Program-made: the position numbers and the translations under genes
NCBI GenBank assembly: GCA_013416795.1
Contig: RQSC01000025.1
Span: 98,327-133,831, forward strand
Direction: 5' to 3'
Source of the DNA: Prasinococcaceae sp. CCMP 1430
Taxonomy: Eukaryota; Prasinodermophyta; Palmophyllophyceae; Prasinococcales; Prasinococcaceae
Length of the DNA: 35,505 nt
The notes under the pieces: model-generated
Database searches by the model: none
Seen by the model: the letters and a program-made list of their open reading frames with translations, nothing else
Told to the model about the DNA's origin: nothing
Shown: positions 10,121 through 34,594 of the stretch, in pieces
Position numbering within the stretch: the first letter of the stretch is position 1
How the letters are laid out: every line of letters begins with the position of its first letter

Positions 10121-10329
10121 TCAGATGGTACCGTACCATCACGATACCATGATGGTACATGTCGCTCAAACTCAAGCAACGTCACGTCTTCTTTGTTGGG
10201 GCCTCGATGCCGCCCGATGGCGATGGTCAGTCAACCCCAGCCCATCGGAGGCATACAGTACCATCATCGTACCATCATGATGGTACAGTACCATCATGAC
10301 GGTACGATCAGTGGTACCATCAGATGGTA
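10121..10329. repeat. Cluster of GGTACCATC/GATGGTACC palindromes
   Basis: Half-sites GTACCATCA and TGATGGTAC occur repeatedly in both orientations. GTACCATCATGATGGTAC at 10269-10286 is a perfect 18-base palindrome. A near-identical copy follows at 10288-10305 with one substitution. TACCATCAGATGGTA sits at 10315-10329, and further half-sites lie at 10124-10158 and 10258-10267. The same 15-base form recurs at other gene starts in this window (25017-25049, degenerate at 27624-27638, 34579-34594), so this is probably a regulatory binding-site cluster rather than random satellite sequence. Confidence 0.8.
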
Positions 10330-10848
10330 TGCGCCTGGGTGCCAGATGGCAGCGCCTCGCACCTCGGTCCTTTCGGGGCATGCGTTGCTGGCGAGGCTCG
10401 TGAGGAATTGCAATTGTTCGCGCGCGCGCTATACGCGGCGCCATATTGCGGCTGCGGGGCGCTCGCCGGGGGCTGCGGCCCCCCTGCAAGAGGGGGGGGG
10501 CAAGGGGGGGGAGGGCAGCATACAGGCTGCCGGGCGGTTCGGCCGCAGGGACGGGCGCGGCGAGCCTGCGCGGCCAGGGACGCGGCGGAGATGTCGGACG
10601 AGTCCGACGCGGACGTGGCCGCGGCCGCGGCGCTCGCCGTCGCGCGCTGTGCGCGGCCCTTTTTTTTCCGGCGCGGCGCCTCGGAGAGCGCGGAGGTCAA
10701 TTGTGAGAGGGCAGGGGCGGGCCGGGCGGCGAGCAGGGGTAGGGTGAGAGGGGGTGCCCAGGCGAGGCGCAGGCGGCGGGTGCGCGGCCGCCCGCCCGGC
10801 GGCGCTCGGCACGGGCGCTCCCCACGGAGGGTGCCGACGCGCACACAA

Positions 10849-10856
10849 TTTATACA
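10849..10856 (+). promoter_or_regulatory. TATA-like box of the protease gene
   Basis: TTTATACA lies 40 bases upstream of the ATG at 10896 in otherwise very GC-rich DNA. The position would give a short 5' leader. Functional use is inferred. Confidence 0.45.
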
Positions 10857-10895
10857 GAAGTCAGGAGAGCTGATCCCTCGCGCGGGGCCTCTGCC

Positions 10896-13800
10896 ATGCC
10901 GTGGCGGCGGCGACGCGGCGCGGGTAGCGACGCGGCTCGGGGAGGGAGGGCGACAGGCACGACGCTGGCGCGCTGTGCGGTCGCTGCCGCAGCCGTGGCG
11001 GCGGCCGAGCGTGCGTTGGCCGCTGCTGCAGACAAAGCACCCGCTGCCTCGCATCGGCATGATAAGGCGGCGCCCGACGATGCGGCGGCGCAAGCGATTT
11101 TTTTCCCCCTCTCCGTGAACGCGTCGGAGTTGACCACGGGCATCGGCAGCGAGGAGTCTGAGGAACACGCCAATCTCGCGGCGAATATCACGCTCTCCGC
11201 ACCGCTGGTCACCGCAGTAATCGACGCGCCCGCTGCGACCTCGCCCCTGGACTCGCCTGGCGACTTTGAGCTCGTGACACGTGCACCGCAGGCTTCGCAG
11301 CCGTCGGCGGCCTTCCATCCAGCGTCTGGCACGGTGGAAGAGATGGCGGCGCGCAGGACGATCGTGGTGTTCCAGTCGGACATCGTCAGCGATGAGGACC
11401 TAGGGAGCTTATGCACCGGTCGACTTCCAGACACATGGGAAGACAGAGTGCTGGAAGAGCCACCTGCCGAGGGCGTCTCGAGGCAATGCAGCGAGGCGCT
11501 GCCCGAGATCGTGCGGCGAAAGCCGGAGCGGGTGGCGTGCGACGAGGCGGCGTGCTGCAGACGCACCTTCGACCCACTGCTGCTGCTGGGTGTGACGATC
11601 GAGGGACCTGCGCCAGCGGTGGATGCGTGGCTTTTCTGCAGCGGGGAGTACGTACTCTTTACGGAACCGGATGCCGTGGTATTAGGGCCGTCGCTCGGAC
11701 GCCCACCAATGAGCGACCCAAGCGGGGGTGCGGACGGGGGCGGCAATGTCAGCAGCGGGAGCGGGCCTGACAGCACTGATGCGAATGATGGTCCGACAGT
11801 TGCGAATACGGAAGAGCCCGAGGCCGAGCCCGCGCCCGAGCCCGAGCTCGAGCCCGAGCCCGAGCCCGCGCCTGAGCCCGAGTCGACCCTCATGTTTTCT
11901 CCTCCGTCGCCCTCATTTGCACCCACACCTACACCAGCGGGGTCACCCATGCTCGTGCCCGAGCCCGAGCCCGTCTCCGTCCCCGAGCCCGAGCCCGAGC
12001 CTGTCTCCATCCCCGAGCCCGAGCCCATCCCCGCCGCTTTGCCCGAGCCTCCGCCCGTGCCCGTCCCCGAGGCCCCGCCCGCGCCCTTGACAGAGCCTCC
12101 GCCAGCGCCCGGGCACGCGGTCGAGCAAAAGGCCGAGGAGGAGCCCGAGATCCAAGACAAAGACGCCGCAACCGATGACGCGGGAGCTCCAGACGAGAAT
12201 GCACTGAGCGAGGACACACACTTGGGACGCCGAGCGCTGCTGACGCACACCCATGACTCCCCCAGCCTCGAGGCACAGGCCGGCGATGCCGTCGACAACC
12301 TGCTCGCGTCGCCCACCTGCCAGGACCCGTCCACGACCTCGTGGGCGCTGGATAGGATGGACCAGCGGCGGCGGCCTGACCTGCAAGCTCCCGCGAGGTA
12401 TCGTGGGCTCGGCTGCGAGAGCGAGAGCGCGGCACCGAGCGGCGGCGGCGGCGGACCCGAGCTGCAGAACGCGACTGGCTTGGGGGTGTTCATCTATGTC
12501 ATCGACACCGGCGTGGACGCGCTTCATGCGGAGTTCCGCACGCAAGACGACAGGACGCGCACGGTCAAGGGCTACGACTACGTCGACGACATCGCCTCGG
12601 TGGTGGATTACGACGGGCACGGCACGGCGGTGGCTGCACTTGCCGCGGGCTCGACCACAGGCACGGCGCCGCGGGCAACGATCGTGCCGCTGCGCGCGCT
12701 GTCGAGGGGCACTGGGCTGAGTTCGCACCTCATATTGGCGCTCCAAATGGTCGCGACAGAGCATCACTTTCGGCCAGAGAATCCTTCGCTGGTGGTCATG
12801 TCGTTCACGACCCCAGCGAGCAACTCGCTCGCTCTGGCCAAAGCGATTGAGCGCGTCGTGGCGCTTGGGGTGACCATCGTCGCGGCGGCGGGGCAGACAA
12901 TCTTTGGCCCGGGAAGCGATGCGTGCGATGTCACACCCGGTGGGCTGGATTCCGTGATCACAGTGAGCGGCTCGACGCCAGGCGATGAGTTCATGAACCA
13001 CGCGAATATGGGCCCCTGCGTCGACTTGTTTGCGCCGGCGGTGGACGTGCGAACGGCGTGCACGCGAAACTCAGCCTGCGAGGAGGTGCCGCCGGACGTG
13101 CCGGGCCTGAGCTCAGCCGGGTCGAGCGGCGTGGACCTCTCGTCGCAGGTGTTTCGCACGGGGCATTCGATCCCGTCCGGAGCAAGTGCGAACATGACCA
13201 CGGGATATGCCTCCGTGACAGGCACGTCGTTCGCCACGCCGCTCGTGGCGGGCGTCGTCGCCAGAGTGCTTTCCCGCTATCCCTTCGCACAACCGGCGGA
13301 GATCAAGGCGTTCCTGAAGCTGCACGCGACGCGCGGGGCCATCCGAAGCGCTCCTCCCCAGATGGGCGCAGGTGACAGGAACGTCACCACGAACCTGCTC
13401 GTCCATACCTTGCTCGAGAGCGAGAAGCTCGCGGCCATCCCGTCGCTGGTGTCCCAGTGGCGCTGCTTGACGCATCCGGAGTGTCACGCCACCCTGTACG
13501 GCGAGGACGAAGCGGCAGACGCGACAGGCGACGACTCGCAGGGCGCCGCGCAAGGCCAAGGGGGTGAGAGCGAGGCCGCCGCGGGCCTCGACGCGAGCGC
13601 CATGACGCCCACGAAGGACGAGAAGCCGGAGATGGACTTAATTGGCACCGCGTGGTCCGAAGAGATATCGCCCAGTGCGTTGCCCACGTTCGCATCGACG
13701 CCGCTCGGCACGCGTGTGGCGGTCGAGGGCGGCCTGGTCAGGGACGGAAAGGTGCAGGGCGTCTACGAGCTCGTCGACGGCCAGGAGGAGGGCGCGGGCT

Positions 13801-15476
13801 TCCGGCTCTTTCGCTCGAACCGGGCGGACCAGCGCAGGTATCGGCTGTATTTGTACGCCGCATTCGTGGCGTCCATGCCGGCGTGTTCGCCTGAATCCCT
13901 ACAGGTGTGCCTCGTGATCGACCATGACACCGACCCCACCAACGGCGTCATCGCCGTCAACCCGGACGCGATACCCTCCCCCACGTCGAAGAGCAAGGCC
14001 GACGGGAGTCGTATGGCTCTCAGCGATGGCGACTCGCTGGGCGCGATCGCCGCGGCGGCCGCGTCCATCGATGTGGGTAACTCGCGCGCCGTGTGTCCGT
14101 TGTCGTGGTACAGCCTGAGCGCATCGAAGGACGTCGTCGTGCCCGGCGCCCCACCCCGATGGGTGCAAGACCCCATCTTCATCACGCACGCAAACGCGCC
14201 GTGCGACACGGCGCTGACGGTGCGTGCACTCGGCAACGATGGCAACGCGTCGACGGGCACGGCGGAGGTGGATGCGCTCCACGGCGTGGCGCTCAACTCG
14301 CTGTACCACCCGGGCGCCGCACAGCAGCACGGCGGCGGTGCCGGGAGTCACGACGGCGTCATGACGGGGGAAGGCAATGCGAGCGAGACGACCGCCGGAG
14401 GGCAGCTCGCGTTCACTGCCAGTTCCGAGCTGTCCGCGTTTCGGGAGAGCGCAGCAGCCTCGAACGACGAGCGCGCGACCTACGTGCTGCGATACGTCAG
14501 CGGAAGCGATGCCGGCTCGGGCATCGGCGAGGTCGGCGAAGAGTGCCAGGCGGCCGGGGGTTGCTTGACCATCCTCTCCGCTGCCGAGAGTGAAGAGGGC
14601 GAACCCGCCGGGCATCACAAGCTGGGCACGGCGGCCCCCAGCGTGACCCTCCTCGCGTACTTGCCAGCGGCAGAGGACAGCGATGGTGCACGGAGCGCTC
14701 TGCGGGCAGCGTCGGCGTCAGTCTTTGGGGCTGAGTGGAAGGTCTTGACGGGATCCCCTCAACAAGGGCGCCCTCAGTCAATCGCGCACGCCGGACAGAA
14801 CGGCACCGACCTCGACGGGTCGGCGGCAGGGCACGGCGGGGAGGTAGAAGACTCTCACGACGCCGGACCGCACTATTCCCCTCGGCGCCTCGAGACGAAA
14901 TGCTGGCCGGACAGGAGGACGCCGTGCACCGCCCTGCGCGTGGAGGGCTCGGGCGTGTTCGGGGGTCGCTTCAATGGACTGTACGTGCTGCACGGCTTCT
15001 TTAGCGGCGGTGGGGACGGCGGCGGCGGCGGCCTCATGGCCAATGGCTCCCTTCCGAAGGGCAACAAGACCGAGACCAGCTCGGCGTCCACGATGCTCGT
15101 CGTGCGCAGCACGCCCGATATGCTGCCGGACGACTGCGCCGCAAACGACTGCGCGCACCGCCATGGGCCGGTGTTCAAAGCGATCAATCAGACCACGGGC
15201 GATCCTCGGGCGTACCTGTACGCCTCGGGCCGCTGGTTTGGTCGCTGGGTGATAGACGAGGACGCCGACGAGTCCAATGGCGTGTGGGGGGTGGGCTACG
15301 GCACCACGCCGAACTCGACTATCGCGGACAGGCGCTATGCATTCAGCGCGGCGCTTGGGGCGGTCTTCGCGCGCGACAACGCCAAGCCGACGACCTGGGC
15401 GATGCGCACCCAAGAGCGCGAGCACGCGGGCGAGCCGTGGGAGCTCGAGCAGCTCGAGGTGCGCTGCGAGGGGTGA
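10896..15476 (+). CDS. Subtilisin-like serine protease (peptidase S8) with Glu-Pro-rich linker and repeated C-terminal module
   Basis: This is a 1,526-residue single-exon protein. The N-terminus is Arg-rich followed by an Ala-rich segment that could be a weak signal anchor. Residues about 305-410 are a Glu-Pro repeat linker. The S8 domain spans about 520-820: catalytic Asp 537 (VIDTGVD), His 575 (DGHGTAVA) and Ser 778 (GTSFATP) are all present. The position that normally holds the oxyanion-hole Asn (AAGN) reads AAAGQT, with Gln at 667. After the protease domain comes a module at about 937-1025 (VQGVYELV ... YLYAAF ... VIDHDTDPTNGVIAV) and a related one at about 1344-1490 (FNGLYVLH ... YLYASGRWFGRWVIDEDADESNGVWGV). 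Cys-rich pairs and location suggest a secreted or surface enzyme. The physiological substrate is unknown. Confidence 0.9.
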   Translation: MPWRRRRGAGSDAARGGRATGTTLARCAVAAAAVAAAERALAAAADKAPAASHRHDKAAPDDAAAQAIFFPLSVNASELTTGIGSEESEEHANLAANITLSAPLVTAVIDAPAATSPLDSPGDFELVTRAPQASQPSAAFHPASGTVEEMAARRTIVVFQSDIVSDEDLGSLCTGRLPDTWEDRVLEEPPAEGVSRQCSEALPEIVRRKPERVACDEAACCRRTFDPLLLLGVTIEGPAPAVDAWLFCSGEYVLFTEPDAVVLGPSLGRPPMSDPSGGADGGGNVSSGSGPDSTDANDGPTVANTEEPEAEPAPEPELEPEPEPAPEPESTLMFSPPSPSFAPTPTPAGSPMLVPEPEPVSVPEPEPEPVSIPEPEPIPAALPEPPPVPVPEAPPAPLTEPPPAPGHAVEQKAEEEPEIQDKDAATDDAGAPDENALSEDTHLGRRALLTHTHDSPSLEAQAGDAVDNLLASPTCQDPSTTSWALDRMDQRRRPDLQAPARYRGLGCESESAAPSGGGGGPELQNATGLGVFIYVIDTGVDALHAEFRTQDDRTRTVKGYDYVDDIASVVDYDGHGTAVAALAAGSTTGTAPRATIVPLRALSRGTGLSSHLILALQMVATEHHFRPENPSLVVMSFTTPASNSLALAKAIERVVALGVTIVAAAGQTIFGPGSDACDVTPGGLDSVITVSGSTPGDEFMNHANMGPCVDLFAPAVDVRTACTRNSACEEVPPDVPGLSSAGSSGVDLSSQVFRTGHSIPSGASANMTTGYASVTGTSFATPLVAGVVARVLSRYPFAQPAEIKAFLKLHATRGAIRSAPPQMGAGDRNVTTNLLVHTLLESEKLAAIPSLVSQWRCLTHPECHATLYGEDEAADATGDDSQGAAQGQGGESEAAAGLDASAMTPTKDEKPEMDLIGTAWSEEISPSALPTFASTPLGTRVAVEGGLVRDGKVQGVYELVDGQEEGAGFRLFRSNRADQRRYRLYLYAAFVASMPACSPESLQVCLVIDHDTDPTNGVIAVNPDAIPSPTSKSKADGSRMALSDGDSLGAIAAAAASIDVGNSRAVCPLSWYSLSASKDVVVPGAPPRWVQDPIFITHANAPCDTALTVRALGNDGNASTGTAEVDALHGVALNSLYHPGAAQQHGGGAGSHDGVMTGEGNASETTAGGQLAFTASSELSAFRESAAASNDERATYVLRYVSGSDAGSGIGEVGEECQAAGGCLTILSAAESEEGEPAGHHKLGTAAPSVTLLAYLPAAEDSDGARSALRAASASVFGAEWKVLTGSPQQGRPQSIAHAGQNGTDLDGSAAGHGGEVEDSHDAGPHYSPRRLETKCWPDRRTPCTALRVEGSGVFGGRFNGLYVLHGFFSGGGDGGGGGLMANGSLPKGNKTETSSASTMLVVRSTPDMLPDDCAANDCAHRHGPVFKAINQTTGDPRAYLYASGRWFGRWVIDEDADESNGVWGVGYGTTPNSTIADRRYAFSAALGAVFARDNAKPTTWAMRTQEREHAGEPWELEQLEVRCEG

Positions 15477-15874
15477 CGTAAACAACAGAAAATAACACAG
15501 ACGCGCGCGAAAAAGAGCCTCGCTCGCGTGCGCGCTAATTTTTTTTTGAGGTGGACGGTGCGCGCTCGACGCCGCGCGCCGCCCACGACCCCCTCTCCAT
15601 CCCTTGCCGCACGACGGCCGTGGCCTGCGCCGCCGCCGTGCGGGACCCCCGGCGGATTCGCAGCCGCATCGCTCTCGTTTCTCCCTCGGCTCCACAGCGC
15701 CCGCGCGCTTCCGCTGAACGAGGAAGAAGCTTCTTACTGTTTTCAGGCGCCTTCGAAGCGATCGATTCGCGGGACATTTAAAAAAAAACACGTGAGAGGG
15801 GGTGCGGAGGGGCGCGGCAGCATGGCCATCGCTGGCACACATTGGAGGCGCCGCGCGGCGCCGCCGCGGCGGGC
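15477..15874. promoter_or_regulatory. Intergenic region with G-box upstream of RpiB-type gene
   Basis: This 398-base gap has no convincing gene. A T run lies at about 15539-15547. Near its end TTTAAAAAAAAA (from 15777) runs directly into the palindrome CACGTG (15789-15794), about 80 bases before the ATG at 15875. The pair looks like a TATA-type element beside a G-box/E-box, but this is inference from sequence only. Confidence 0.45.
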
Positions 15875-16544
15875 ATGGAGGTGTACCTCGCGAGCGACGC
15901 CTTCGGCTCCGACCTGCGCGCCGCCGTGAGGGAGCGCCTCGAGGCGCAGGACCGCGTGTGCCGGGTGATCGACCTGGGGGAGGCCGCGTACTACGACGCG
16001 GCCGCGGCGGTGGCGCGCGCGGTGGCGGAGCGGCGGCTGGCGCGCGGCGTGCTCGTGTGCGGCACGGGCGCCGGCGTGTGCATGGTCGCCAACAAGCACC
16101 CGGGCGTGATGGCCGTCCTCGCGCGCGACGCGGACGACGCGGCCGAGGCGAGGAGCATCAGCGGCGCGAACGTGCTCTGCCTGGGGCAGATGCGCACCTC
16201 GCCAGACGTGGCCGGGGCGTGCGTCGACGCCTTCCTGGGCACTGGGGTGGGAGCCCCGTGCCGCGCCAGCGGTGGGGGCGCCTGGTCAGGTGCGTGTTGC
16301 TCGCGCGCGCACGGCGCACCGTCCTCAGAAGAGCTGACCCACGCCCGAGCGCGTCGTCGCCGCGTAAAATGCCGATTACAACGCAGCCGAGATCGAAGGC
16401 TTCATCGCGCAGAGCACCGGCGGTGCGAGCGGCGCGGAGGCCTTCCGACCCGAGGGGGCCCTGGCGACTTGCTGCGCGTCGCTCGCGGCGGCCGGCGGCG
16501 CGCCCTCTGAGGGCGTGGCAGCGGACGCATCGCGCGACGGCTGA
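15875..16544 (+). CDS. rpiB: RpiB/LacAB-type sugar-phosphate isomerase (two exons)
   Basis: RpiB interconverts ribose 5-phosphate and ribulose 5-phosphate in the pentose phosphate and Calvin pathways. Exon 1 is 15875-16289 and exon 2 is 16387-16544, joined in phase 1 across an intron with donor GTGCGT and acceptor GCAG. The conserved core is intact: VYLASDAFGSDLR at the start, the catalytic-Cys loop VLVCGTGAGVCMVANKHPGV with Cys near residue 62, and ARSISGANVLCLGQ. The second exon (EIEGFIAQSTGGASGAEAF...) is an Ala-rich tail not typical of bacterial RpiB. ATG 15875 is chosen because MEVYLASD aligns with the family start and the earlier ATG (15822) is out of frame. Other LacAB-family sugar-phosphate substrates remain possible. 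Confidence 0.85.
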
Positions 16545-16591
16545 GGCGACCACAGTCGACGAGTGAGGCACCAACACGAAGTAATAAGCGA

Positions 16592-16616
16592 GTACACTGT
16601 ACATGTATATATATAT
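16592..16616. promoter_or_regulatory. UGUA-rich palindromic 3' end element
   Basis: GTACACTGTACATGTATA followed by an AT run lies about 50 bases after the RpiB stop, in the 143-base convergent gap with the ABC transporter gene. It resembles the element directly after the deoxyhypusine synthase stop at 29120-29140. TGTA motifs are known polyadenylation elements in many eukaryotes, so a 3'-end role is inferred. Confidence 0.4.
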
Positions 16617-16687
16617 GGTCGCGACGCGTGCGGGCGCGAGCAACCCCCTTTTCACTCCTCTCTGGCTGGCGCGGCGCCACTGCTACG

Positions 16688-18044
16688 CTACGCGCTGTCC
16701 ATCGCCGAGCCGTCTGGCGGGGTGCTGCTGCCCGCAGTGCTGGCGATGCTGGCATCGGCGGCGCTCTCTCCCGCGGGGTCGGGCGCGAGGCCTCCGCTCG
16801 CGGCCGCCGCCACCTCAGCTGCGCTCTGTGGCAGCCCGGCGTCGTCGCGGGCGGGGTCCAACTCTGTCAACGACGCGGCCGAGCCTTCTTCGCCGCCGAT
16901 CATCTGCCTCCGCACCAGATTGGAGTACGGCCCGCCCTCGTTGGCCAGCAGCTCCGCGTGCGTGCCCTGCTCCAGCAGACGGCCCTTTGAGAAGACCGAT
17001 ATGGCGTCGCTGTCGATGACCGTGGCCAGTCTGTGCGCCACCACGATGGTCGTGCGCCCCTCTTGCAGCGTGTCGAGCGCATCCTGCACGAGCGCCTCCG
17101 ACTCGGCGTCCAGGGCACTCGTCGCCTCGTCCAGGAGCAGCACGCGCGGGGACCGTATGATGGCGCGAGCGATCGCGATGCGCTGCTTCTGCCCGCCGCT
17201 CAGCTGCGTGCCGCGCTCGCCCACGAGGGTCTCGTAGCCGTCCGGGAGGGCAGTCACGAACGAGTGCGCGTTCGCGGCCCGCGCCGCCTCCTCGATCTCG
17301 GCCTCGCTGGCCGTCGGCTTCCCGTACATGATGTTCGCCCGGACGCTCCCCGAAAAGAGCACGGGCTCTTGCGCCACCAGCCCCAGGTTAGAGCGCAACC
17401 AGTCCTGCGAGAGCCCCCTGAGGTCGTTGTCGTCCAGCCGGATCGCGCCGGCGACGGGGTCGTAGAAGCGCAAGAGCAGGCGGATGATGGTGCTCTTGCC
17501 GCTGCCGCTCGCGCCCACCAGGCTCATCTTCTGGCCGGGCGCCACGCGCATGCTCACGCCACGGAGGACCATCTGCTCCGGCCGAGCCGGGTAGAAGAAG
17601 TGCACGTCCTGCAGCTCCACCGCGCCCCTGAAGTCGCCCTTGGGCACCGCTATCCCGCTCCGGCTGTCGCCCATGGCCGGTTCTCGCGCCAGGAGCGCGA
17701 AGACGCGCTCGCTCGCGCCGAGAGCCTGAGCGAAGGACACGAAGAGGCCCGCGAGGAACCCGAACGAGCTGGCGATCTGGATGGCGTACAGCAGGAAGCC
17801 GCTCAGCCCGCCGGCGGTGATCTGGTCCGCCAGCACGAGGCGCCCGCCCTGCTCAGGCCAATGAGAGTGACGGCGGGGGGTGGGCGGATGGGGTGGGCGG
17901 GATTTGCGTCAGAGGGAGTGTCAGCGCTCGCGCGTTGCACGGAGGGCCACTCGCTCTCGCTCGCTGCGCAACCCCGAAGGGGACGCTGCGCGTGCGAGCG
18001 ACCAAAAGCTCACGACGTGTCAGAGCGCACGCGCGCGCGCGCGA

Positions 18045-18086
<42 letters not shown>

Positions 18087-19649: not shown

Positions 19650-20155
19650 CTAGAGTAGCCCCAGCGCCGCGTATGAGCAATGTGGTAGCTGGTCTCTGAG
19701 CGGTGCCGCGCCGGCGCGGCGCGGCGCCGCGCGAAAGCCTTTCCCTGTCCCGCTCGCCTGCGGGCTGCCACAGCGTGCGTGGGCGCGTGGGCCCTCCGGC
19801 GGCGCGACCCCGCGCCGCGGCGCCGCGCGCGCGCCCTGTGGCGCGCACTTCTCGCGCGATCGGCGGAGCGCGCGGAAAAAAAAAACATTGTGTATTGGGG
19901 TTTGATAGTTTAGGGTTTAAGTCAACGCGTTGTGGGCAGGGGCGCGCTCGGCTTGTGTACAGGGTGCCACAGCGCCCGCCCGCCCGCCCGGGAGGGGGTG
20001 TTCCGGATCGCGCACCCGTCTTTCCCGCGCCTGTGCCGTGTGGGCCGGTGAGAAAACAAAGGAAATGTGCGCAAAAAGCAACACCATCCGACCCTCAAGA
20101 TAATGGTGTCATTTACCCACGGGCGATCAATTACATGAGGCTTGCCTCGCCACAT

Positions 20156-20379
20156 ACAATCTGATGGTACTGTACAGCACCAGTTGGAATCATACGATGG
20201 CAAGTTTAACGCCCAGCAAATGCTTCGCAAAGTTTTCACCCTGGAGAGAAGCGGGCGCGGGGCGCGAGCGCGAAGCCCCGCCGCGGACCCAGGAATCGCA
20301 CGGACGCGGAGCGCTGTGGAGGTGGGCTTCCCGAACGCATCTGCCATCCGATGGTACTGTACTGTGCCATCGATGGTAC
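20156..20379. repeat. Palindromic motif copies upstream of the WD40 gene
   Basis: ACAATCTGATGGTAC (from 20156) and GCCATCCGATGGTAC (from 20343) each differ by one base from ACCATCNGATGGT. CCATCGATGG at 20367-20376 is a further palindrome followed by TAC. They belong to the same motif family as the clusters at 10121-10329 and 25017-25049, with weaker symmetry. Confidence 0.6.
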
Positions 20380-20508
20380 ACATGGAACTGAACTGGAACT
20401 GCTTTCGCGATGCCGATTCCGCACCTCCATCGATCCATGGGAGAGTGGCGAGAGGGCCCTGACGAAACGACCCTCGAGGGCCGCTGCTGGGTCGCACCAC
20501 CCTTTGCA

Positions 20509-20563
20509 TTTTGATGTGGGCGCTGTCGTTTCGCGTGCGCGTTCGCGGGCGATGTGACAGCGG
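20509..20563 (+). promoter_or_regulatory. Upstream block shared with the ankyrin-repeat gene
   Basis: TTTTGATGTGGGC, then TCGTTTCGCG, ending in CGATGTGACAGCGG (20550-20563) and followed by a T-rich GGGGCTTTTTT step and a GC-alternating tract. The same order, with an identical 14-base CGATGTGACAGCGG, occurs at 29166-29216. Here the 14-mer begins 148 bases before the chosen ATG. A shared promoter is inferred. Confidence 0.65.
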
Positions 20564-20697
20564 GGCTTTTTTGTGCGCGCGCGGCCGCGCGGCCGCGCGG
20601 CGGCGGCGGTGGCGGCGCCAGTGGCGCCACTGCGCGTGCAGCTGGCGGCCAAGGACAGGTGACCACTGCGCGCGCGCGGGGAGGCCCAGGACAGGCG

Positions 20698-21897
20698 ATG
20701 GACTTAGCGCGCATGATGTGCGTGTGGGGTGCGCCGACCGACGAGGCGGTGCACGTGCTCGAGGGGCACGAGGATACTGTGTTTTCGGTGTGCTGGAGCC
20801 CGGACGGCTCGCGCCTGGCCTCGGCGAGCTTCGACAGGACGGTGCGCGTGTGGGTCGCGGGGGACGCGTCGACCGGCACGGCGGTGCATGTGCTCGAGGG
20901 CACAGTTTTTGTGCGCTCACTGTGCTGGGGCCCGGACGGCTCGCGCCTTGCGGCGAGCGACGACAAGACGGTGCGCGTGTGGGACGCGTCGACCGGCGAG
21001 GCGGTGCACGTGCTCGAGGGACACGAGCATGTCGTGCGCTCGATGTGCTGGAGTCCGGACGGCTCGCGCCTGGCGTCGGCGAGCGACGATAAGACGGTGC
21101 GCATGTGGGACGCGTCGACCGGCGAGGCGGTGCGCGTGCTTGAGGGACACAGCCACTGCATGTACTCACTGTGCTGGAGTCCGGACGGCTCGCGCCTGGC
21201 GTCGGCGAGCGCCAACAAGACTGTGCGCGTGTGGGACGCGTCGACAGGCGAGGCGGTGCGCGTGCTCGAGGGACACGAGGATACTGTGACTTCGGTGTGC
21301 TGGAGCCCAGACGGCTCGCGCCTGGCGTCGGCGGGTTGGGACAACACGGTGCGCGTGTGGGACGCGTCGACCGGCAAGGCGGTGCACGTGCTCGAGGGAC
21401 ACAGACAATGGGTGCACTCGGTGTGCTGGAGCCCGGACGGCTCGCGCCTGGCGTCGGCGAGCGACGACAGGACGATGCGCGTGTGGGACGCGTCGACCGG
21501 CGAGGCAGTGCACGCGTTCCAGGGATATAGGGATTGTGTGGGTTCACCGTGTTGGAGCCCGGACGGCTCGCGCCTGGCGTCGGCGAGCGACGACAAGACT
21601 GTGCGCGTGTGGGACGCGTCGACAGGCGACGCGTTGCACGTGCTCGTGGGACACGAGGATACTGTGACTTCGGTGTGCTGGAGCCCCGACGGCTCGCGCC
21701 TGGCGTCGGCGAGCAGAGACTACACGGTGCGCGTGTGGAGATTCACTTTAGGACTACCTGACATTTACAAGCGCTTGCGCTCGCGCGAAGTCCAGCGTCG
21801 ATCCACTCGAGCGCACTGGAGCACTCAATCGGCGCGCGCACGCGCTTCGAGGCGAGAGCTCGCGCGCGGCAATGGCAGCAGCTCCGCTCCTCCGTAA
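20698..21897 (+). CDS. WD40-repeat protein with eight highly similar repeats
   Basis: From the ATG at 20698 the frame encodes 399 residues. Nearly all of it is eight WD40 repeats of the form HVLEGH-x-CWSPDGSRLASASxDxTVRVWDASTGEAV, enough for one beta-propeller plus a repeat. The repeats share most positions; variation concentrates between the GH and CWSPDG motifs (EDTVFS, EHVVRS, SHCMYS, RQWVHS, RDCVGS) and just before the TVRVW strand. The short tail (IYKRLRSREVQRRS...) is basic. No catalytic, NACHT or NB-ARC domain is attached, and no transmembrane segment is visible. The in-frame region upstream of 20698 is Ala/Gly/Arg-rich and lacks an ATG. The function is probably a protein-binding scaffold; the partner is unknown. 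It runs convergently into the gyrase A gene with 78 bases between stops. Confidence 0.85.
   Translation: MDLARMMCVWGAPTDEAVHVLEGHEDTVFSVCWSPDGSRLASASFDRTVRVWVAGDASTGTAVHVLEGTVFVRSLCWGPDGSRLAASDDKTVRVWDASTGEAVHVLEGHEHVVRSMCWSPDGSRLASASDDKTVRMWDASTGEAVRVLEGHSHCMYSLCWSPDGSRLASASANKTVRVWDASTGEAVRVLEGHEDTVTSVCWSPDGSRLASAGWDNTVRVWDASTGKAVHVLEGHRQWVHSVCWSPDGSRLASASDDRTMRVWDASTGEAVHAFQGYRDCVGSPCWSPDGSRLASASDDKTVRVWDASTGDALHVLVGHEDTVTSVCWSPDGSRLASASRDYTVRVWRFTLGLPDIYKRLRSREVQRRSTRAHWSTQSARARASRRELARGNGSSSAPP
20750..21744 (+). repeat. Tandem 126-base WD40-coding repeats
   Basis: The invariant TGCTGG (TGTTGG once) of each repeat starts at 20791, 20923, 21046, 21172, 21298, 21424, 21550 and 21676. The last five intervals are exactly 126 bases; the first two are 132 and 123. 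Long stretches are identical at DNA level, including synonymous positions, which indicates recent duplication or gene conversion. Confidence 0.9.
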
Positions 21898-21975
21898 GAA
21901 GCGTGTCTAGTGGCAGTCTTACGCGTCCTCGCCCACCGCGCCGCCCGGCCGCGCGCCGCCACCCGCCGCCGTCGC

Positions 21976-24132: not shown

Positions 24133-24183
<51 letters not shown>

Positions 24184-24983
24184 CTGGCTGCCGTTGATGA
24201 GCAGGTTCGGGAGCTTGGCGGGCAGCACGGCGGGCTCGAGCGTCGAGTCGTCGAAGTTGGGCGCGAAGGGCACCGTGTCGCTCTCGAGGTCCGCCAGGAG
24301 CATGTCGGCGGCCGCGGGCTGCAGGCGGCACTCCGTGTAGCGCATCGCCGCGGCGCTGTCGCCGTCCATCGACCCGAAGTTGCCGTGGCCGTCGACGAGC
24401 GGCGTGCGCAGCGAGAAGTCCTGCGCCATGCGCACCAGCGCGTCGTACACGCTCTGGTCGCCGTGCGGGTGGAACTTGCCCAGCACCTCGCCCACCACGC
24501 GCGCGCTCTTGCGGTGCGGCTTGCGCGGGCTCAGGCCGAGCTCGTGCATGGCGTACAGGATGCGCCGGTGGACGGGCTTGAGGCCGTCGCGCACGTCGGG
24601 CAGCGCGCGCCCGACGATGACGCTCATCGCGTACGAGAGGTAGCTCGAGCGCGTCTCCTCGTGGAGCTCCTCCTCGATGATGTTCTCGTCGGCGCCGGCG
24701 GGCGGGGGTTTGTTCGGCGGCGCGGCGCCGCCCGCCGAGGCGGCGGCGGGGGCGGCGACGGAGCGNNNNNNNNNNNNNNNNNNNNNNNNNNNNNNNNNNN
24801 NNNNNNNNNNNNNNNNNNNNNNNNNNNNNNNNNNNNNNNNNNNNNNNNNNNNNNNNNNNNNNNNNNNNNNNNNNTGTGCCCGCGCCCGTGCCCGTGCCCG
24901 TGCCCGTGCCGGCGGCGGCGGCGGCGGCCTCCTTCGAACGCGCGCGGCTGCGACGGTCGAAGAAACCCCGGTTTCGAGCGCAT
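21976..24983 (-). CDS. gyrA: DNA gyrase subunit A, organelle-type (two exons, gap near the N-terminus)
   Basis: This is the breakage-reunion subunit of a type IIA topoisomerase that supercoils organellar DNA with GyrB. Exon 2 is 23325-21976; exon 1 ends at 23509, joined in phase 0 (ELK|STSAEQ) across an intron with donor GTGCGC. The N-terminal core reads [40 protein letters not shown] and [11 protein letters not shown]; the catalytic Tyr codon is at 24337-24339. The C-terminal half carries beta-pinwheel repeats with [10 protein letters not shown] where bacterial gyrase has the QRRGGKG box. Ahead of the core is an Ala/Pro-rich stretch and the sequencing gap. The start given, ATG 24983 ([16 protein letters not shown]...), looks like a targeting peptide but is out of frame with the nominal gap length, so it is provisional. 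Confidence 0.9.
24766..24874. other. Assembly gap (109 N)
   Basis: Unknown bases interrupt the 5' part of the gyrase A gene. The right flank is a (GTGCCC)-type tandem repeat followed by GGC repeats, which probably caused the gap. The nominal length is not reliable for reading frame. Confidence 0.99.
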
Positions 24984-25016
24984 GCGTTTTCAACTGCAAT
25001 TCGATCGGTTGGTGTG

Positions 25017-25049
25017 TACCATCTGATGGTAAAGTACCATCAGATGGTA
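25017..25049. promoter_or_regulatory. Two tandem TACCATCNGATGGTA palindromes between divergent gyrA and ABCF genes
   Basis: TACCATCTGATGGTA at 25017-25031 and TACCATCAGATGGTA at 25035-25049 are perfect 15-base palindromes around one central base, spaced 18 bases start to start. They lie just outside the candidate gyrase A start (24983) and 278 bases before the ABCF start. The symmetry suits a dimeric DNA-binding protein serving both genes; this is inferred. Confidence 0.75.
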
Positions 25050-25326
25050 GTTGGTCATGACGTGTGTGTGTGCTCCATACGCACAAGGTCCCGTCGCGTT
25101 CAAATTGACGTACGCAGGACGAACGCGTTCGCCGGTTTCGGTTTCGCGCGAAACGCCCGATCATGCGACGATCCGGACCGAGGCTGGGTTGCAGAGCTGG
25201 CCGGCGGCGGCTGCTGCGATGCAGGTGTGGCGCGGCGGGGCCGGCGCGCCACACGGGGCGGCCTCGGCCCCTCTCCCCCCCCGTTTCCCCTTCGCGCCCG
25301 GCGCCCCCTCGGCGGGGTCGTTGGCC

Positions 25327-27450: not shown

Positions 27451-27854
27451 CGCCCGCGCGACGTCCGCGCGTCGTCGGCGTTGGGGTTGGGGGCGGGTTG
27501 TGTGTGGTGTGTGTGTGTGTGTGTGTGGCGAATGCGTGCGGCGGGGGTGCGGGCCGCCACGGTGCCTGCTCACTCGTCGGGGCGTTTCGGCGTGTCGTGC
27601 ACACACCGATGGTACGTACTGTGTATCATCTGATGTTACTACATCGCCGCGCCTGCAATAAACCCTGTATACGAAACCTCCAACCTCAAATGTGGCGTTA
27701 TCGTTTTCGCGGCCGATTTGGTTTGGGTTTGGCCGGCGGCTGCGCGGCGGCCGGCCGCGCCGCACCACAGCGCGCGCGCGACACGCGAGGCGAGCGCGCG
27801 CGCCCGCCCGCGGTGGCGTCGCTGACCGCCGGCCGGCGCGCGCCCCTCCCGCAG
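27451..27854. other. Spacer between ABCF and deoxyhypusine synthase; missing 5' exon expected here
   Basis: This 404-base stretch begins with G/T-rich sequence and a (GT)n run at about 27507-27527, which fits a downstream polyadenylation element for the ABCF gene. At 27624-27638 lies TATCATCTGATGTTA, a degenerate but still symmetric copy of the palindromic motif. A less GC-rich patch at 27606-27725 looks like promoter sequence. I looked in all frames for the conserved N-terminal segment of deoxyhypusine synthase and did not find it. Confidence 0.5.
27624..27638. promoter_or_regulatory. Degenerate copy of the 15-base palindrome
   Basis: TATCATCTGATGTTA differs from TACCATCTGATGGTA at two positions placed symmetrically. 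It is preceded by CCGATGGTACGTAC (27606-27619), another half-site. It lies about 220 bases before the first visible deoxyhypusine synthase exon. Confidence 0.5.
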
Positions 27855-29119
<1,265 letters not shown>

Positions 29120-29140
29120 GTACAGTGTACATGTAATAAA
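29120..29140 (+). terminator. Polyadenylation region of deoxyhypusine synthase
   Basis: Immediately after the stop, GTACAGTGTACATGTAATAAA contains TGTA motifs, the green-algal-type TGTAA and a canonical AATAAA (29135-29140). A 3'-processing role is inferred from motif and position. Confidence 0.6.
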
Positions 29141-29165
29141 ACGCGTGCGGGATGGAGCTCAATGC

Positions 29166-29216
29166 GATTTGACGTGGGCTCGTTTGCGCGCGCGCGCGCG
29201 CACGATGTGACAGCGG
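29166..29216 (+). promoter_or_regulatory. Upstream block shared with the WD40 gene
   Basis: GATTTGACGTGGGCTCGTTT, a GC-alternating stretch, then CGATGTGACAGCGG at 29203-29216, followed by GCGCTCTTTTCGCGCGCG. The order and the exact 14-base core match 20509-20563. The 14-mer begins 128 bases before the ATG at 29331. Confidence 0.65.
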
Positions 29217-29330
29217 CGCTCTTTTCGCGCGCGCGCGCGCGCTGGGGGCGGGCGGGCCGTGGAGTGCGAGCGCGTGAGGGCAGGGCGCGCACGAGCGCGC
29301 GCGGGCTTGTGCGCAACCAGAGAGAGAGAG

Positions 29331-29914
29331 ATGTTTGGCGGCGGCGGCGGTGGCGATGACGCCGCGGCGGCCGAGCGCGCGCGCCAGGCGCTGCTGCTGG
29401 CGACGCGGGCGCTCGGCGTGAGCTGCACTACGCAGCTTGCTGGGACTCTCCCGACTGCCTGCGGCTGCTGCTCGAGGCGGGCGCCGACATTGAGAAGACT
29501 AGTTTCCACGGCGAGACGCCTATGCACGCAGCAGCAGAAATCGGCAGTGCAGACTGCGTGCGGGTGCTGCTCGAGGCGGGCGCCGACATTCAGAAGGCTA
29601 ATGTGGACGGCGAGACGCCTATTCACCTCGCAGCTCAATATCCACGCTCCGACTGCGTGCGGCTGCTGCTCGAGGCGGGCACCGACATGGAGAAGGCTGA
29701 CGTCGCCGGCAACACGCCCTTGCACCTCGCCGGAGAACGCGGCCGCGCCGACTGCGTGCGGGTGCTGCTCGAGGCGGGCGCCGACGCATCCGCCCGCAAT
29801 GCCAACGGCCGCACGGCGCTCCAACTCGCCGAGGAATCTGCCCACCAGTGGGAAGCGAGTGACCGCAAAGGGGCCACCGCGGCGCTGCTCAGACGCGCGC
29901 ACTCCTCCGGTTAG
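29331..29914 (+). CDS. Ankyrin-repeat protein with apparent frame break near its start
   Basis: The ankyrin frame reads ELHYAACWDSPDCLRLLLEAGAD, then four further repeats such as GETPIHLAAQYPRSDCVRLL and GNTPLHLAGERGRADCVRVL, and ends at 29914 with a Ser/His/Arg tail (ATAALLRRAHSSG). Repeats are about 33 residues and very alike in DNA. The nearest good start, ATG 29331 (MFGGGGGGDDAAAAERARQALLLATRALGV), is in a different frame. The two frames would join around 29415-29425 with a one-base change, and no intron of normal size fits between them. It is either a sequence error, a real frameshift that makes this a pseudogene, or a gene with another start. The likely role, if expressed, is protein binding; no other domain is visible. 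Confidence 0.6.
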
Positions 29915-30068
29915 GCGAGTGCGTTTTCTTGAACATGTTACAGTACAGGTTTGTGTAGACTACAGGGCCGCGCTGCTTCCCCCCCCCCCCCAGGCGCCCG
30001 CGCGGCGGCGGCGGCCGTGCGTGGGCCGCCGTCTCCGGCCGCTCAAAGCGGCGCGCGCCGCGAGCGCG

Positions 30069-31251
30069 TCAGGGCATCTGGCTCTTGCTGGCGCGCAGGC
30101 AGGAGGCCGACGGCGAGAGCAGCAGCTTCTCCACGCTCTCGGGCGTGCTGGACGCGTGCAGCAGGAAGACGCCGACGAAGACGGTGGTGAAGCCGCTGAG
30201 CTCGCTCAGCTTCTGCACGCCGCCCAGCCCGCCCAGCTCGTCGTACATGATGGCCTCGGCGAGGACGGTCAGCGTGGTGAAGAGCACGTAGTATATGGGG
30301 CTCACCACGGCCGTGTTGAACAGGTCGAGCGCGCGATTGAGGTAGTTCATTTGCTGCGCGCGCGCGCCGGCGCGCCGGCGCGCGTCAGCGCGAGCGACGC
30401 GGCGGGGATGGGGGGGATGGGGGCGTGGGGAGGCGCGCGCGGCGGCGCACCGTGACGACGCAGCACGCGACCACGAGCGCGAAGAACCAGGTCTCCGGGC
30501 GGCCCATCTGGTCGTCGCCGCGCGCGGTGAGCTTGAGCGCGATGCCGAGCGCCTTGCAGCTCATCACGCTCAGCGAGCCCATCAGCGAGCAGATGGACAC
30601 GTACACCAGGATCTGCGAGCGCCCGTGCCGCGGCGCGACGGCGCACGCCAGCGCCGCCGCCGCGCACGCGGCGCACGCGGCGTACGCCGCGAACGCGGGC
30701 GCCGTCGCCATCGCGAAGAGCTCCCGCACCGACTCGACGCGCGGCTCCTCGGGCGCGTGCGTGACGATCACGGCCGACCCCGCGACGCACAGCACGCACC
30801 CCGCCGCGCCCAGCACGTGCAGCCGCTCGCCGAGCAGCGCGCCGGCCAGCGCGGCGGTCACGAGGATCGACAGGGCGCCCAGGGGGGTGACGAGCATCGC
30901 CGGCGCGAACGCGTAGGCGACGAAGTTGCACGCCTCGCCCGCGGCCATGAGGAGGAGGCCCGACCACCACAGCGGCGAGCGCAGGTAGGAGTAGCCGCCC
31001 GACGCGGCGCGCAGGGCGTTTGCGTGGGTGCTCGCCGCCGCGCGCAGCCCCTTCTTCTTCACGATGAACGACGCGCCGATCATGAGGGCGCTGGCGAGGG
31101 CGAGGAGGGTGCCGATGGTGCGGTCGTTGTCGTCGGAGAGGTAGGAGTAGCTTTGTTGTTGTTGGGCGTGTGTGTGGGCGTGGGTGTGTGTGGGGGTGGG
31201 GGGGGTTGTCGCTGCTGCTGTTGTGGTGGCTGTGTGTGGGTGGGGGCGCAT
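30069..31251 (-). CDS. NIPA-like magnesium transporter (two exons)
   Basis: This is a multi-pass membrane protein of the NIPA (DUF803) family, which transports Mg2+ at the plasma membrane or endosomes. Exon 1 is 31251-30451 and exon 2 is 30353-30069, joined in phase 0 (VACCVVT|QMNYLNRALD) over a 97-base intron with donor GTGCGC. Total length is 361 residues, normal for the family. Diagnostic segments are GTLLALASALMIGASFIVKK, WWSGLLLMAAGEACNFVAYA, FAPAMLVTPLGALSILVTA and NTAVVSPIYYVLFTTLTVLA. Residues 1-34 are His/Thr/Pro-rich and may instead be a 5' leader or intron: A/C-rich sequence ends in CAACAACAACAAAG at about 31151, a plausible acceptor. The start is therefore uncertain. It converges with the ankyrin gene, 154 bases away, across a C13 run near 29980. 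Confidence 0.88.
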
Positions 31252-31755
31252 GGTCGTCGTCGCGAGTGCGGCGTTGTGGTGGGTGGGTTGTGGTGTGTGT
31301 GTGTGCGAGCTCGATGGGCTGACGCATGCGCGTGCAGCGCGACCAGCGCGAGCGCGAGCGCTCTCCCCGCGCCCCCGCGATGCCAGGGGGGGCGTTCGGT
31401 CTGCGCTGCCGGTTGTGCATCCGAGCGAGCAGCCCCGCGGCGTGATTCCTCCATCGGATCCTGTCTCCGCGGACGCGCGCCGCGCCGCGCCTCGCGCGCG
31501 ACTGGCCGCCCCTGGATCCGATTCAGCCTCCGCGCACGCTGGCCTGCATGCCGGTGTCGGACTCGGGCACCGGCGTGGTCGTGCGCGCCGGATTTCGTTT
31601 CGGGGCTATTTCGCACCCGTCCTGCAGTGAAAATGTACATAATTTTGAACGTAATATGCCCTCTAAACTGATCAAACATAATCCCGTGGATCACCGGGCG
31701 CGCGCGAAGGCTCCTCGTGGTGGATGGGTTGATTATCGGAGGGCATGGAAAGCGC

Positions 31756-32052
31756 CTAACGCCCGGGAACGCGCGTACGTGTATGTGCTCGTCCACGAAG
31801 TTGTGGAGGTGTCCTTGGCCACCGGCCATGCCTGAAAGCGTTGTTCATGTGAAGGTGAGTCGGCTGCTGCTTCCGCTCAACGCCCACCGCCCTGCTCGCC
31901 TCCTCCTCGATGCTGTCCTCGGACCTGCAATCGTTGGACATGCGGTCGTCGCACGTGCATGCGAAGAGGGCGGCGCCCTTGCTGTGGGTACAGCATGGCA
32001 CCCGGCCCCTCCTGGCGCTCTCGCCGCCCAGCGGCTCTTGGAACTGACGCAT
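31756..32052 (-). CDS. Candidate hypothetical coding segment, unassigned
   Basis: On the minus strand the frame from ATG 32052 reads MRQFQEPLGGESARRGRVPC, then CCTHSKGAALFACTCDDRMS and an acidic stretch (SEDSIEEEASRAVGVERKQQ). Third codon positions are almost all G or C over the first 60 codons, as in real genes here, and composition is balanced. The frame extends open upstream to about 32115 (LVDGGIIGHMRQF). The last part after about 31850 looks less like protein. I do not recognise it. It might be one exon of a gene or remains of a mobile element. An overlapping plus-strand frame (31717-32172) shows weaker codon bias. Confidence 0.25.
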   Translation of the reverse strand: MRQFQEPLGGESARRGRVPCCTHSKGAALFACTCDDRMSNDCRSEDSIEEEASRAVGVERKQQPTHLHMNNAFRHGRWPRTPPQLRGRAHTRTRVPGR

Positions 32053-32343
32053 GTGGCCAATGATGCCACCATCGACGAGGTCGTGATGGTGCGCTCTGCG
32101 TTCTTGTGCACGCGGTCACCCCATCCCGCCGCGCGCGTTTTCATTCGCGCCGAGGGCGACGGAGGCGACTGACGGAGAGGCACCCAGCAGTACGGGATCT
32201 ACATGGCATGCGAGGTATGATATACTAACGGGAGAGTCAGGCTCGTGATATGAGAATTATCGAGTCTGGGCAGATATCGCTTGGGCGCATGGCGCCCCGC
32301 GCGCCGCCCCGGTAGGCCCCGGGTAGGATCCGCGCATTCGAGC

Positions 32344-32380
32344 AAAAAAAAAAAAAGAACGCGTGGGCAGCAAAAAAAAA
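32344..32380 (-). terminator. Pol III-type oligo-T terminators of the tRNA-like locus
   Basis: Read on the minus strand, T9 (32380-32372) and then T13 (32356-32344) follow the acceptor end of the tRNA-like sequence by about 15 and 40 bases. Oligo-T runs are the normal RNA polymerase III stop signal. Confidence 0.55.
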
Positions 32381-32394
32381 CAGCAACCGAACGC

Positions 32395-32500
32395 TACAAA
32401 GAGGGAGGTTCGAACTCCCGACCTTTCGCCGGCCGGCATTCGCATGCCGGCCACTCGCGTGTGAGGCGAGCGTCATGAATCGTCACGAAAACTGTGCGCG
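32395..32500 (-). tRNA. tRNA-Val(CAC)-like gene with a 29-base hairpin insert; 5' half aberrant
   Basis: On the minus strand the anticodon arm is CTCGC-CTCACAC-GCGAG (32470-32454), loop 32465-32459, with anticodon CAC at 32463-32461. Next comes GGCCGGCAT-GCGA-ATGCCGGCC (32452-32431), a perfect 9-base-pair stem closed by a GNRA tetraloop. After it, GCGAAAGGTC repeats the 3' side of the anticodon stem and leads into a perfect T-arm, GGGAG-TTCGAAC-CTCCC (32419-32403), and TCTTTGT plus A. CTCACAC joined directly to GCGAAAGGTC matches the core of eukaryotic tRNA-Val(CAC), so the hairpin looks like an intron near position 37-38. The 5' side lacks a clear D-arm and the ACAAAGA needed to pair with TCTTTGT. 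It may be a pseudogene, a tRNA-derived repeat, or a gene whose 5' half lies elsewhere. Confidence 0.45.
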
Positions 32501-32913
32501 CACAGATTTGGTTCCAACTAGATTGAACGCATTACGTCTCCCCGAGACGTAAAATTCCATCCTTGCTCGGTTATGGTGGGGGTCGCTGATGCGACAGGTC
32601 CCGAAACCGGGGTATATAAACAGACAAGACGGTCACCAGACAGAGACACATCTCCATGCAATTCGATGGGCCGTGTCGCGCGCAAAAGCGCACGCACCCC
32701 GGTATCACCCCAAAATCAGTCCCCCCTCCCCGGCCGCGCAGCAGCGACGCCCATCAAACCCCCACGAAACGACCCAGGAATCCGCGCGGCTCCACCTCTG
32801 CGCCCCGCCAGACGGCCGGCATACCACTCCCGAATCGACGGCGCGCATCGACCACCGCAGCAGCGGGCGGCGCAGCGCCTGGCGAGATGCTTGCGGTTGA
32901 AAGAAACGCAGCG
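32501..32913 (+). promoter_or_regulatory. Upstream region of organellar L3 with TATA box
   Basis: TATATAAA at 32613-32620 is the clearest TATA box in the window. Further upstream are a hairpin ACGTCTC-CCC-GAGACGT (32534-32550) and the palindrome CTGTGCGCGCACAG (32492-32505). The first ATG after the TATA box is 32656, in the same frame as the L3 presequence, so translation could begin there; the residues between are Arg/Pro/Ser-rich. Confidence 0.55.
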
Positions 32914-34151
32914 ATGGCGCTGGCATGGCTGACGAGCTCCCGCTCCTCCTCCGCAGCTGACATGCCTGCCTCTCCCCGCCGCCCTTCCCCCTCCCCCACT
33001 CGCCGTGCGCTCGATCGCCGTGGGCCGCCACGCGCTGGCGGGGCTTCGCCGCCGCCTCGGGCACCCCCACCTCCTCGTCGCAGCAGCAGCAGCAGCAGCA
33101 GGAGGAGGAGGAGCAGCAGCAGCGGCAAGAAGGGCACCACACACACCAACCCTCCACACCATCACCACAGAAAACAACGCTCCCGGCGACGGCGCACCCA
33201 CACACCCCGACGACGCCACCACCACCACCAAAAACAACAACAACGAAAGGCTCGGTGCTGCGCGCCATCCACCTGGCGCGCAGCCGCTCGGCGCGCCGCC
33301 TCCCCGAGCGCCTCGCCCTGCACGCCTCCCTCAGCGACCGCCTCCTCGAGGACCCGTCGTCCCGCCCCGCGATGACCAGCCACTCTCAGAAGCGCACCGG
33401 CCTGATCGCGTACAAGTGCGGCATGACCGCCGAGTGGACCGAGCACGGCAACCGCATCGCGCTGACCATCCTGCACGTCGACAACTGCCAGGTCACGCAG
33501 GTCAAGTCCCCCTCCACGGACGGCTACAGCGCCCTCCAGCTCGCCGCGGGCTCCAAGCGGCCCAAGCGCGTCGCGGCCCCCCAGCGCGGCCACTTCGCCG
33601 CGGCGGGCGTGGACTGCAAGCGCACGGTGGGCGAGTTCCGCGTCACGGAGGACGCGCTGCTGCCCGTCGGCACGCGGCTGAACGCCACCCACTTCCGGCC
33701 GGGCCAGCTGGTGGACGTGGTGGGCACCAGCAAGGGCAAGGGCTTCGCCGGCGTGATGAAGCGCCACAACTTCAAGGGGCAGCCGGCGTCGCACGGCACG
33801 GGCATGGTGCACCGCCGGGGCGGCTCCATCAGCTCGCTGGGGCTCGGGCGCGTGTGGCCAGGCAAGAAGATGGCGGGCCACATGGGCAACGCCAGGACGA
33901 CCGTGCAGTCGCAGCGCGTGCACAAGATCGACCTCGCGCGCAACCTCATCTTCGTCGCCGGCGCCGTGCCCGGCCCGGTCGGCGGCGCGGTGTTCGTGCG
34001 CGACGCGCTGCGCGACCTGAGCCAGGAGGCGCTCGACGTGCCCTTCCCCGCCTTCGTCGAGGGGGTGGACGAGGTGCCGCACCTCGACGAGGCGCTCGGC
34101 GAGGCCAGGGCGCCCGCTGGGCGCAACCCGTACCACGTGTACCTCAAGTGA
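32914..34151 (+). CDS. Organellar (bacterial-type) ribosomal protein L3, uL3m-like (two exons)
   Basis: This is a large-subunit ribosomal protein near the peptidyl-transferase centre, of the bacterial/mitochondrial type. The conserved body starts at TGLIAYKCGMTAEWTEHG and includes VTQVKSPSTDGYSALQL, FRVTEDALLPVGT, the L3 signature GKGFAGVMKRHNFKGQPASH, KKMAGHMGNARTTVQSQRV and VAGAVPGPVGGAVFVRDA. Sequence style is closest to plant mitochondrial L3. I propose exon 1 ending at 33004 and exon 2 at 33250-34151: donor GTGCGC, acceptor after CAACAACAACGAAAG, both phase 1. The resulting N-terminus (MALAWLTSSRSSSAAD ... SVLRAIHLARSRSARRLPER) is basic, Ser/Ala-rich and lacks acids early on, typical of a targeting presequence. 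ATGs at 32656, 32914 and 32962 share the frame, so the start is uncertain. Confidence 0.85.
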
Positions 34152-34169
34152 CAACTCATGTACGCATGT

Positions 34170-34343
34170 ACAACTTCGAGGGGCAGCCGAGGGCTAGCGC
34201 TGCGCGACCTGAGCCAGGGGGCGCTCGACGTGCCCTTCCCCGCCTTCGTCGAGGGGGTGGACGAGGTGCCGCACCTCGACGAGGCGCTCGGCGAGGCCAG
34301 GGCGCCCGCCGGGCGCAACCCGTACCACGTGTACCTCAAGTGA
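34170..34343 (+). pseudogene. Partial duplicate of the L3 3' end
   Basis: 34197-34343 repeats 34005-34151 (last 147 bases including the stop) with two differences I can see, one changing Glu to Gly. Just before it, 34170-34189 repeats 33766-33785 (ACAACTTC-AGGGGCAGCCG) with one difference. So two separate parts of the L3 coding sequence are joined after the functional stop, with the middle deleted. The copy has no promoter of its own and is presumably 3' UTR sequence. Confidence 0.85.
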
Positions 34344-34578
34344 GCCGAGACGGGGCTTCGCCGGCGCCCGTTCCTCGCTTGCGCCCTCCCTTCCCTCCCT
34401 CCCTCCATTCTTTCCTTGCCCGCCCTCGCGGGCCCGCCGCGGCCGGGGCGCGCTGCCTGCGGACGCCACGCCGCCAGGCGATCGATGGCGCGATTTTTTT
34501 CTGCCCTCGACATTAATTTTTAATTTTTTAATTACCGACCAGCCCGTCCCAGCCCGAGCGCTCGTGAGCGAGTCGCGA

Positions 34579-34594
34579 TACCATCCGGATGGTA
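34579..34594. promoter_or_regulatory. TACCATCCGGATGGTA palindrome upstream of OGG1
   Basis: A perfect 16-base palindrome of the same family as the 15-base elements at 25017-25049 and 10315-10329, here with a CG centre. It lies about 290 bases before the first recognisable OGG1 codons, just after the AT-rich patch at 34493-34533. Confidence 0.65.

Follow-up and report, generated by a model that had tools for sequence, protein, structure and literature searches.

Recurrent inverted pairs of an 8-bp half-site in intergenic DNA of the green alga Prasinococcaceae sp. CCMP 1430: a putative binding site of a gene-control protein

To our knowledge, the cis-regulatory sequence of early-diverging green algae has been little described. 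Among elements known from other systems, the RFX X-box is an inverted half-site element with a flexible spacer; the palindrome described here likewise consists of two inverted half-sites separated by a short variable spacer, but the sequence of the half-site is different. In green algae and plants, SBP-domain factors (CRR1/SPL) recognize elements with a GTAC core, the site consensus being NNGTACR, in which N is often C (PMC3520712), and the SBP family presumably arose in the Viridiplantae ancestor (PMC7455551). The genome of Prasinoderma coloniale, of 25.3 Mb and 69.8% GC in 22 chromosomes, includes SBP as well as IFT genes (PMC7455551). The present palindrome resembles the SBP elements in having GTAC at the end of its half-site, in its clustered repeats and in the presence of an SBP gene in the genome. 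It differs in that the best-conserved core is GATGG, the base preceding GTAC is G, and inverted pairs with 1–2 bp spacers are the rule. Literature searches for TACCATC or GATGGTAC as a motif yielded nothing relevant, and those for palindromic promoter motifs in these algae yielded no paper.

The window, i.e., the whole 35,505-nt stretch of DNA that was analysed (G000:C71:98327-133831), has a GC content of 69.7%. A sequence-only reading had proposed that a palindrome, TACCATC-N-GATGGTA, recurs there in exact or near copies at gene starts as a promoter element. The recurrence is real: the window carries seven sites that match TACCATNNNATGGTA with no more than two mismatches, whereas 0.08 ± 0.27 are expected from dinucleotide shuffles, and the coordinates given in that reading were correct to within a few bases. 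The exact form TACCATC-N-GATGGTA is limited to three copies; the rest carry a mismatch or a 2-bp spacer. Beyond the seven copies, two further inverted pairs in the window are exact but have 2 bp at their centre (10270–10285 and 34579–34594).

A cluster of half-sites lies between the ACCase gene (− strand) and the subtilase gene (+ strand). Its left end is a palindrome with one mismatch, TACCGTCAGATGGTA (10116–10130), which has a half-site in common with an everted pair, GATGGTACCGTACCATC (10124–10140; type GATGGTACNGTACCATC). Lone half-sites GATGGTA (10151–10157, + strand) and TACCATC (10259–10265, − strand) are followed by the first of the 2-bp-spaced pairs, TACCATCATGATGGTA (TACCATC-AT-GATGGTA), a second everted pair of the same type, GATGGTACAGTACCATC (10279–10295), and an exact palindrome, TACCATCAGATGGTA (10315–10329). 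Between the ABC transporter gene (−) and the WD40 gene (+), two palindromes with one mismatch each, TACAATCTGATGGTA (20155–20169) and TGCCATCCGATGGTA (20342–20356), are accompanied by an inverted pair with a 0-bp spacer and one mismatch, TGCCATCGATGGTA (20365–20378). Between gyrA (−) and ABCF (+), the exact palindromes TACCATCTGATGGTA (25017–25031) and TACCATCAGATGGTA (25035–25049) are separated by 3 bp, and an everted pair, GATGGTAAAGTACCATC, spans 25025–25041. A run of N at 24766–24874 lies between these palindromes and the last called gyrA coding segment, which ends at 24690, and the 5′ end of gyrA is thus only partly visible.

The remaining sites lie upstream of + strand genes. Between ABCF (+) and the next + gene, which the sequence-only reading named deoxyhypusine synthase, a lone GATGGTA (27608–27614, + strand) precedes a degenerate palindrome with two mismatches, TATCATCTGATGTTA (27624–27638). 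The changes in this degenerate copy had been read as symmetric drift, a sign of selection for two-fold symmetry. They are C3>T and G13>T, which occupy mirror positions but are not complementary; the resultant T-T mismatch lowers the two-fold symmetry, and the argument from drift therefore fails. The chance that two random mismatches hit mirror positions is 1 in 13. The last site, upstream of a + gene named OGG1 in the same reading, is the second 2-bp-spaced pair, TACCATCCGGATGGTA (TACCATC-CG-GATGGTA), and is a true palindrome.

In total, 19 GATGGTA/TACCATC half-sites are present in the window, all of them within its non-coding part (~23%) and none in called genes. Three of four divergent and two of three tandem intervals contain them, and the four convergent intervals have none, in agreement with the earlier claim that coding exons and convergent intervals are devoid of copies. 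Three to five site-bearing promoters in 35 kb might seem remarkable; by estimate, however, when promoters are counted, the richest of ~690 genome windows might show about as many.

Over-representation extends to the whole 24.5-Mb assembly of 145 contigs, in which the reversed pattern of the same composition was used as the control. Strict palindromes number 30 with a 1-bp spacer and 36 with a 2-bp spacer, compared with no occurrence of either control; from composition alone, about 0.01 strict sites would be expected in the genome. When one mismatch is allowed, the 1-bp-spacer form is found 67 times (control, 1). Inverted pairs at spacings of 0–30 bp number 99 (control, 0), two thirds of which have a spacing of 1 or 2 bp. 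Everted pairs (19 versus 7) and direct half-site repeats (41 versus 4 on both strands) are also in excess, as is the half-site GTACCATC itself (555 versus 201 for its reverse). Viral contigs include seven single matches and no clusters, which by estimate is about the chance level. Several palindromes are located on short contigs (C30, 16.9 kb; C35, 28.8 kb) or no more than ~2 kb from a contig end (C131:427, C135:55322-55368, C1:397887 and C28:387), possibly in repeat-rich or subtelomeric regions.

These counts bear on the idea that the palindromes are artefacts of composition or mutation, either chance AT-containing words in AT-richer intergenic DNA or short inverted repeats copied by strand switching. 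The neighbourhoods of the sites are indeed AT-richer (59% GC, compared with 66% further away) and contain other short palindromic words. A chance origin is nevertheless refuted by the reversed controls of the same composition, which gave zero, and local strand switching cannot be the source of one specific 8-mer that recurs at unrelated loci. An artefact is thus very improbable as an account of the palindrome as a whole, although local duplication may be the source of some of the half-site arrays. Everted pairs at G000:C59:215911, C84:415881, C68:229927 and C82:339463 sit in longer nested palindromes composed of GTAC, CAGTAC and CTAG words, a possible sign of local inverted duplication in such patches.

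Alignment of the loci indicates that the unit is the 8-bp half-site GATGGTAC, paired in inverted orientation across 1 or 2 bp and often accompanied by extra half-sites. Its terminal C is kept in 81 of the 114 aligned half-sites, and a weak tail follows. Centres of the 2-bp type are mostly CG, AT, CT or AG, meaning that TACCATC prefers A or C as the next base. The inner GATGG is better kept than the GTAC end. Among the 20 single-mismatch copies listed, the outermost A is the most tolerant position, with eight of the changes (p 0.004), and none of the changes falls on G5. Within 100 bp of the anchor palindromes, 21 further copies of GATGGTAC are found versus 0.29 expected, whereas no single-base variant of it exceeds four copies, indicating that this word is both highly specific and clustered.

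This pattern of conservation is also informative about a known candidate factor. The genome includes one SBP gene (G000:C78:308649, E 1.9e-26), which places it in the green lineage, and the palindrome might accordingly be read as two inverted GTAC sites of this lone CRR1/SPL7-like factor, comparable to the copper response element of Chlamydomonas. GTAC is in fact abundant around the sites (101 versus 39.6 expected by composition), consistent with such a reading. However, in addition to the G that precedes GTAC where the SBP consensus often has C, the GTAC end, with its tolerant final A and its C kept in only part of the half-sites, is the loosest part of the site, and the site is therefore not assigned to SBP/CRR1. 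The Pfam-named flanking genes are mixed in function and include no classic copper target. The factor is present but the core is wrong, as an invariant GTAC is not seen, and assignment to SBP is improbable.

The relation of the sites to genes was analysed by a six-frame coding HMM trained on the window's large ACCase, subtilase and ABCF ORFs, which calls coding segments rather than annotated genes. The HMM also marks genes outside its training set, and Pfam confirms the ABC transporter, WD40, gyrase A, NIPA transporter and ribosomal protein L3 among them. The gene-called set consists of 41 loci, including five looser site variants (L016, L017, L023, L024 and L025) and the window's own two (L013 and L014); 18 strict loci are covered over about 0.84 kb or less, and eight strict loci with spacing 2 lie outside the set. 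In about half of the flanking segments submitted to Pfam, the called strand was confirmed. Genes that could be named in this way include those for IFT122, cobalamin adenosyltransferase, adenylate kinase, cytochrome c heme lyase, glutamine synthetase III and a protein kinase, among others, and no common function was found among them.

None of the 41 loci has its site in coding sequence, whereas composition alone would put ~70% of sites there (~77% of the window is coding). By a stricter filter, 19 loci are divergent, 18 tandem, three unclear and at most one convergent, the single convergent call (L062) resting on a doubtful 137-bp segment; the distribution is thus not uniform. Binomial tests give about p 0.002 for the depletion of convergent intervals when the window and loci together serve as the background (21% convergent) and about p 0.08 when the window alone is used (10% convergent). 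Convergent intervals are short, and the significance of the depletion is for this reason only moderate. From the site to the called start of the facing gene, the median distance is ~315 bp. In tandem pairs the site is mid-intergenic, ~310 bp from the end of the other gene, and the data accordingly show no leaning towards starts other than that implied by orientation. Of the proposal that the palindrome is a promoter element, the intergenic location and the preference for divergent and tandem over convergent intervals hold, but tandem sites lie about as far from the downstream start as from the end of the upstream gene.

Telo-box-like words provide a further, indirect indication of position. 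The plant telo-box (AAACCCTAA) is of a different sequence, and the palindrome is a separate element, but telo-box-like words, TAGGGT and AGGGTTT among them, are strongly enriched within ~100 bp of it. TAGGGT is found 14 times in this range, compared with 0.3 when scaled from far DNA and 4.8 by composition. In Arabidopsis, the TELO-box is preferentially positioned from −60 to +140 relative to the transcription start site (PMC2576244), and the enrichment of similar words here suggests that the palindromes likewise lie near transcription starts. Words of this kind (TAGGGT, AGGGTTT and GGGTCTA) were observed at L001, L002, L007, L009, L010, L021, L027, L034, L039, L043, L049 and other loci.

Dispersed, palindromic and TA-flanked sites would also be expected of a miniature transposon (MITE) or its excision footprints, e.g., the TA-flanked ends of Tc1/mariner-like elements. 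The resemblance extends to two window clusters of ~214 and ~225 bp with half-sites at both ends, and to TAC(A/T)GTA words that adjoin many of the sites. MITEs and Tc1/mariner footprints are similarly short, but the sites described here have neither an element body nor target-site duplications. All-against-all BLAST of the loci confines similarity to ~20–39 bp of motif, and flanking direct repeats of at least four bases are seen at three of 57 sites, compared with 4.1 when partners are shuffled. Spacer and cluster make-up vary from site to site, and coding sequence is avoided throughout the gene-called loci. A recent MITE family or Tc1/mariner footprint is excluded by the lack of a shared body and of excess target-site duplications, and an origin of the palindromes in transposition is, overall, most unlikely.

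A structural or chromosomal role, as a replication origin, insulator or boundary site placed in open intergenic DNA where promoters lie, fits several features of the sites: their low density, the arrays of alternating half-sites and the lack of a functional theme among neighbouring genes. The adjoining palindromes at 25012–25054 can pair perfectly over 15 bp around an AAG loop, giving a hairpin of −23.4 kcal/mol as RNA. Single palindromes, however, give weak hairpins (−6 to −7 kcal/mol, 3–4 nt loop), compensatory change is lacking in the degenerate 27624 copy, and spacing along contigs is very irregular, unlike that of evenly spread origins. A role of this kind is therefore given a small share of the probability. 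An RNA hairpin element was rejected on account of the weak fold of single palindromes and because the 27624 copy and the listed single-mismatch copies break pairing with no compensation; a search for an Rfam family or tRNA match to the palindrome gave none.

As the palindrome is far above chance and almost never located between two gene ends, it is most likely the site of a gene-control protein. We favour, as the probable explanation, a putative binding site for a sequence-specific DNA-binding protein in promoters or upstream regulatory regions, a function that we infer from sequence and position. Such a protein would read the 8-bp half-site GATGGTAC and would bind inverted half-sites 1 or 2 bp apart, the most probable form being a dimer or a pair of adjacent monomers, thereby acting on transcription of the adjacent genes. 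Extra half-sites, either everted at a distance of 3–4 bp or dispersed over the nearest ~100 bp, may form homotypic clusters that raise occupancy. A choice between 1- and 2-bp spacers is unusual for a rigid dimer, which counts against this explanation. Strict sites number about 100, compared with the thousands of genes expected, so that the palindrome is not a general core-promoter element.

The cis-element is itself undescribed but would be of a known kind, namely a homotypic transcription-factor site. A bolder version, which we consider unlikely, is that an undescribed lineage-restricted factor of this early-diverging green-plant lineage reads GATGGTAC, tolerates the 1–2 bp spacer and marks roughly 100–200 promoters or boundaries. 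If so, and if the DNA-binding domain of the factor were outside known families, it would represent a new class of regulator. The specific motif, together with the genome-wide list of sites, offers a direct bait with which to isolate its factor and delimits a set of genes on which a regulon can be tested. Also, in a genome of ~70% GC, AT-containing palindromes can be spotted by eye as regulatory candidates.

Two tandem repeats were also observed in the window. The WD40 gene includes, at 20720–21738, about eight tandem 126-bp units with ~80% match, which make it an amplified WD40-repeat gene. Just downstream of the so-called deoxyhypusine synthase gene, a 99-bp unit is repeated 3.5 times at 29443–29785 and has the appearance of ankyrin-type repeats.
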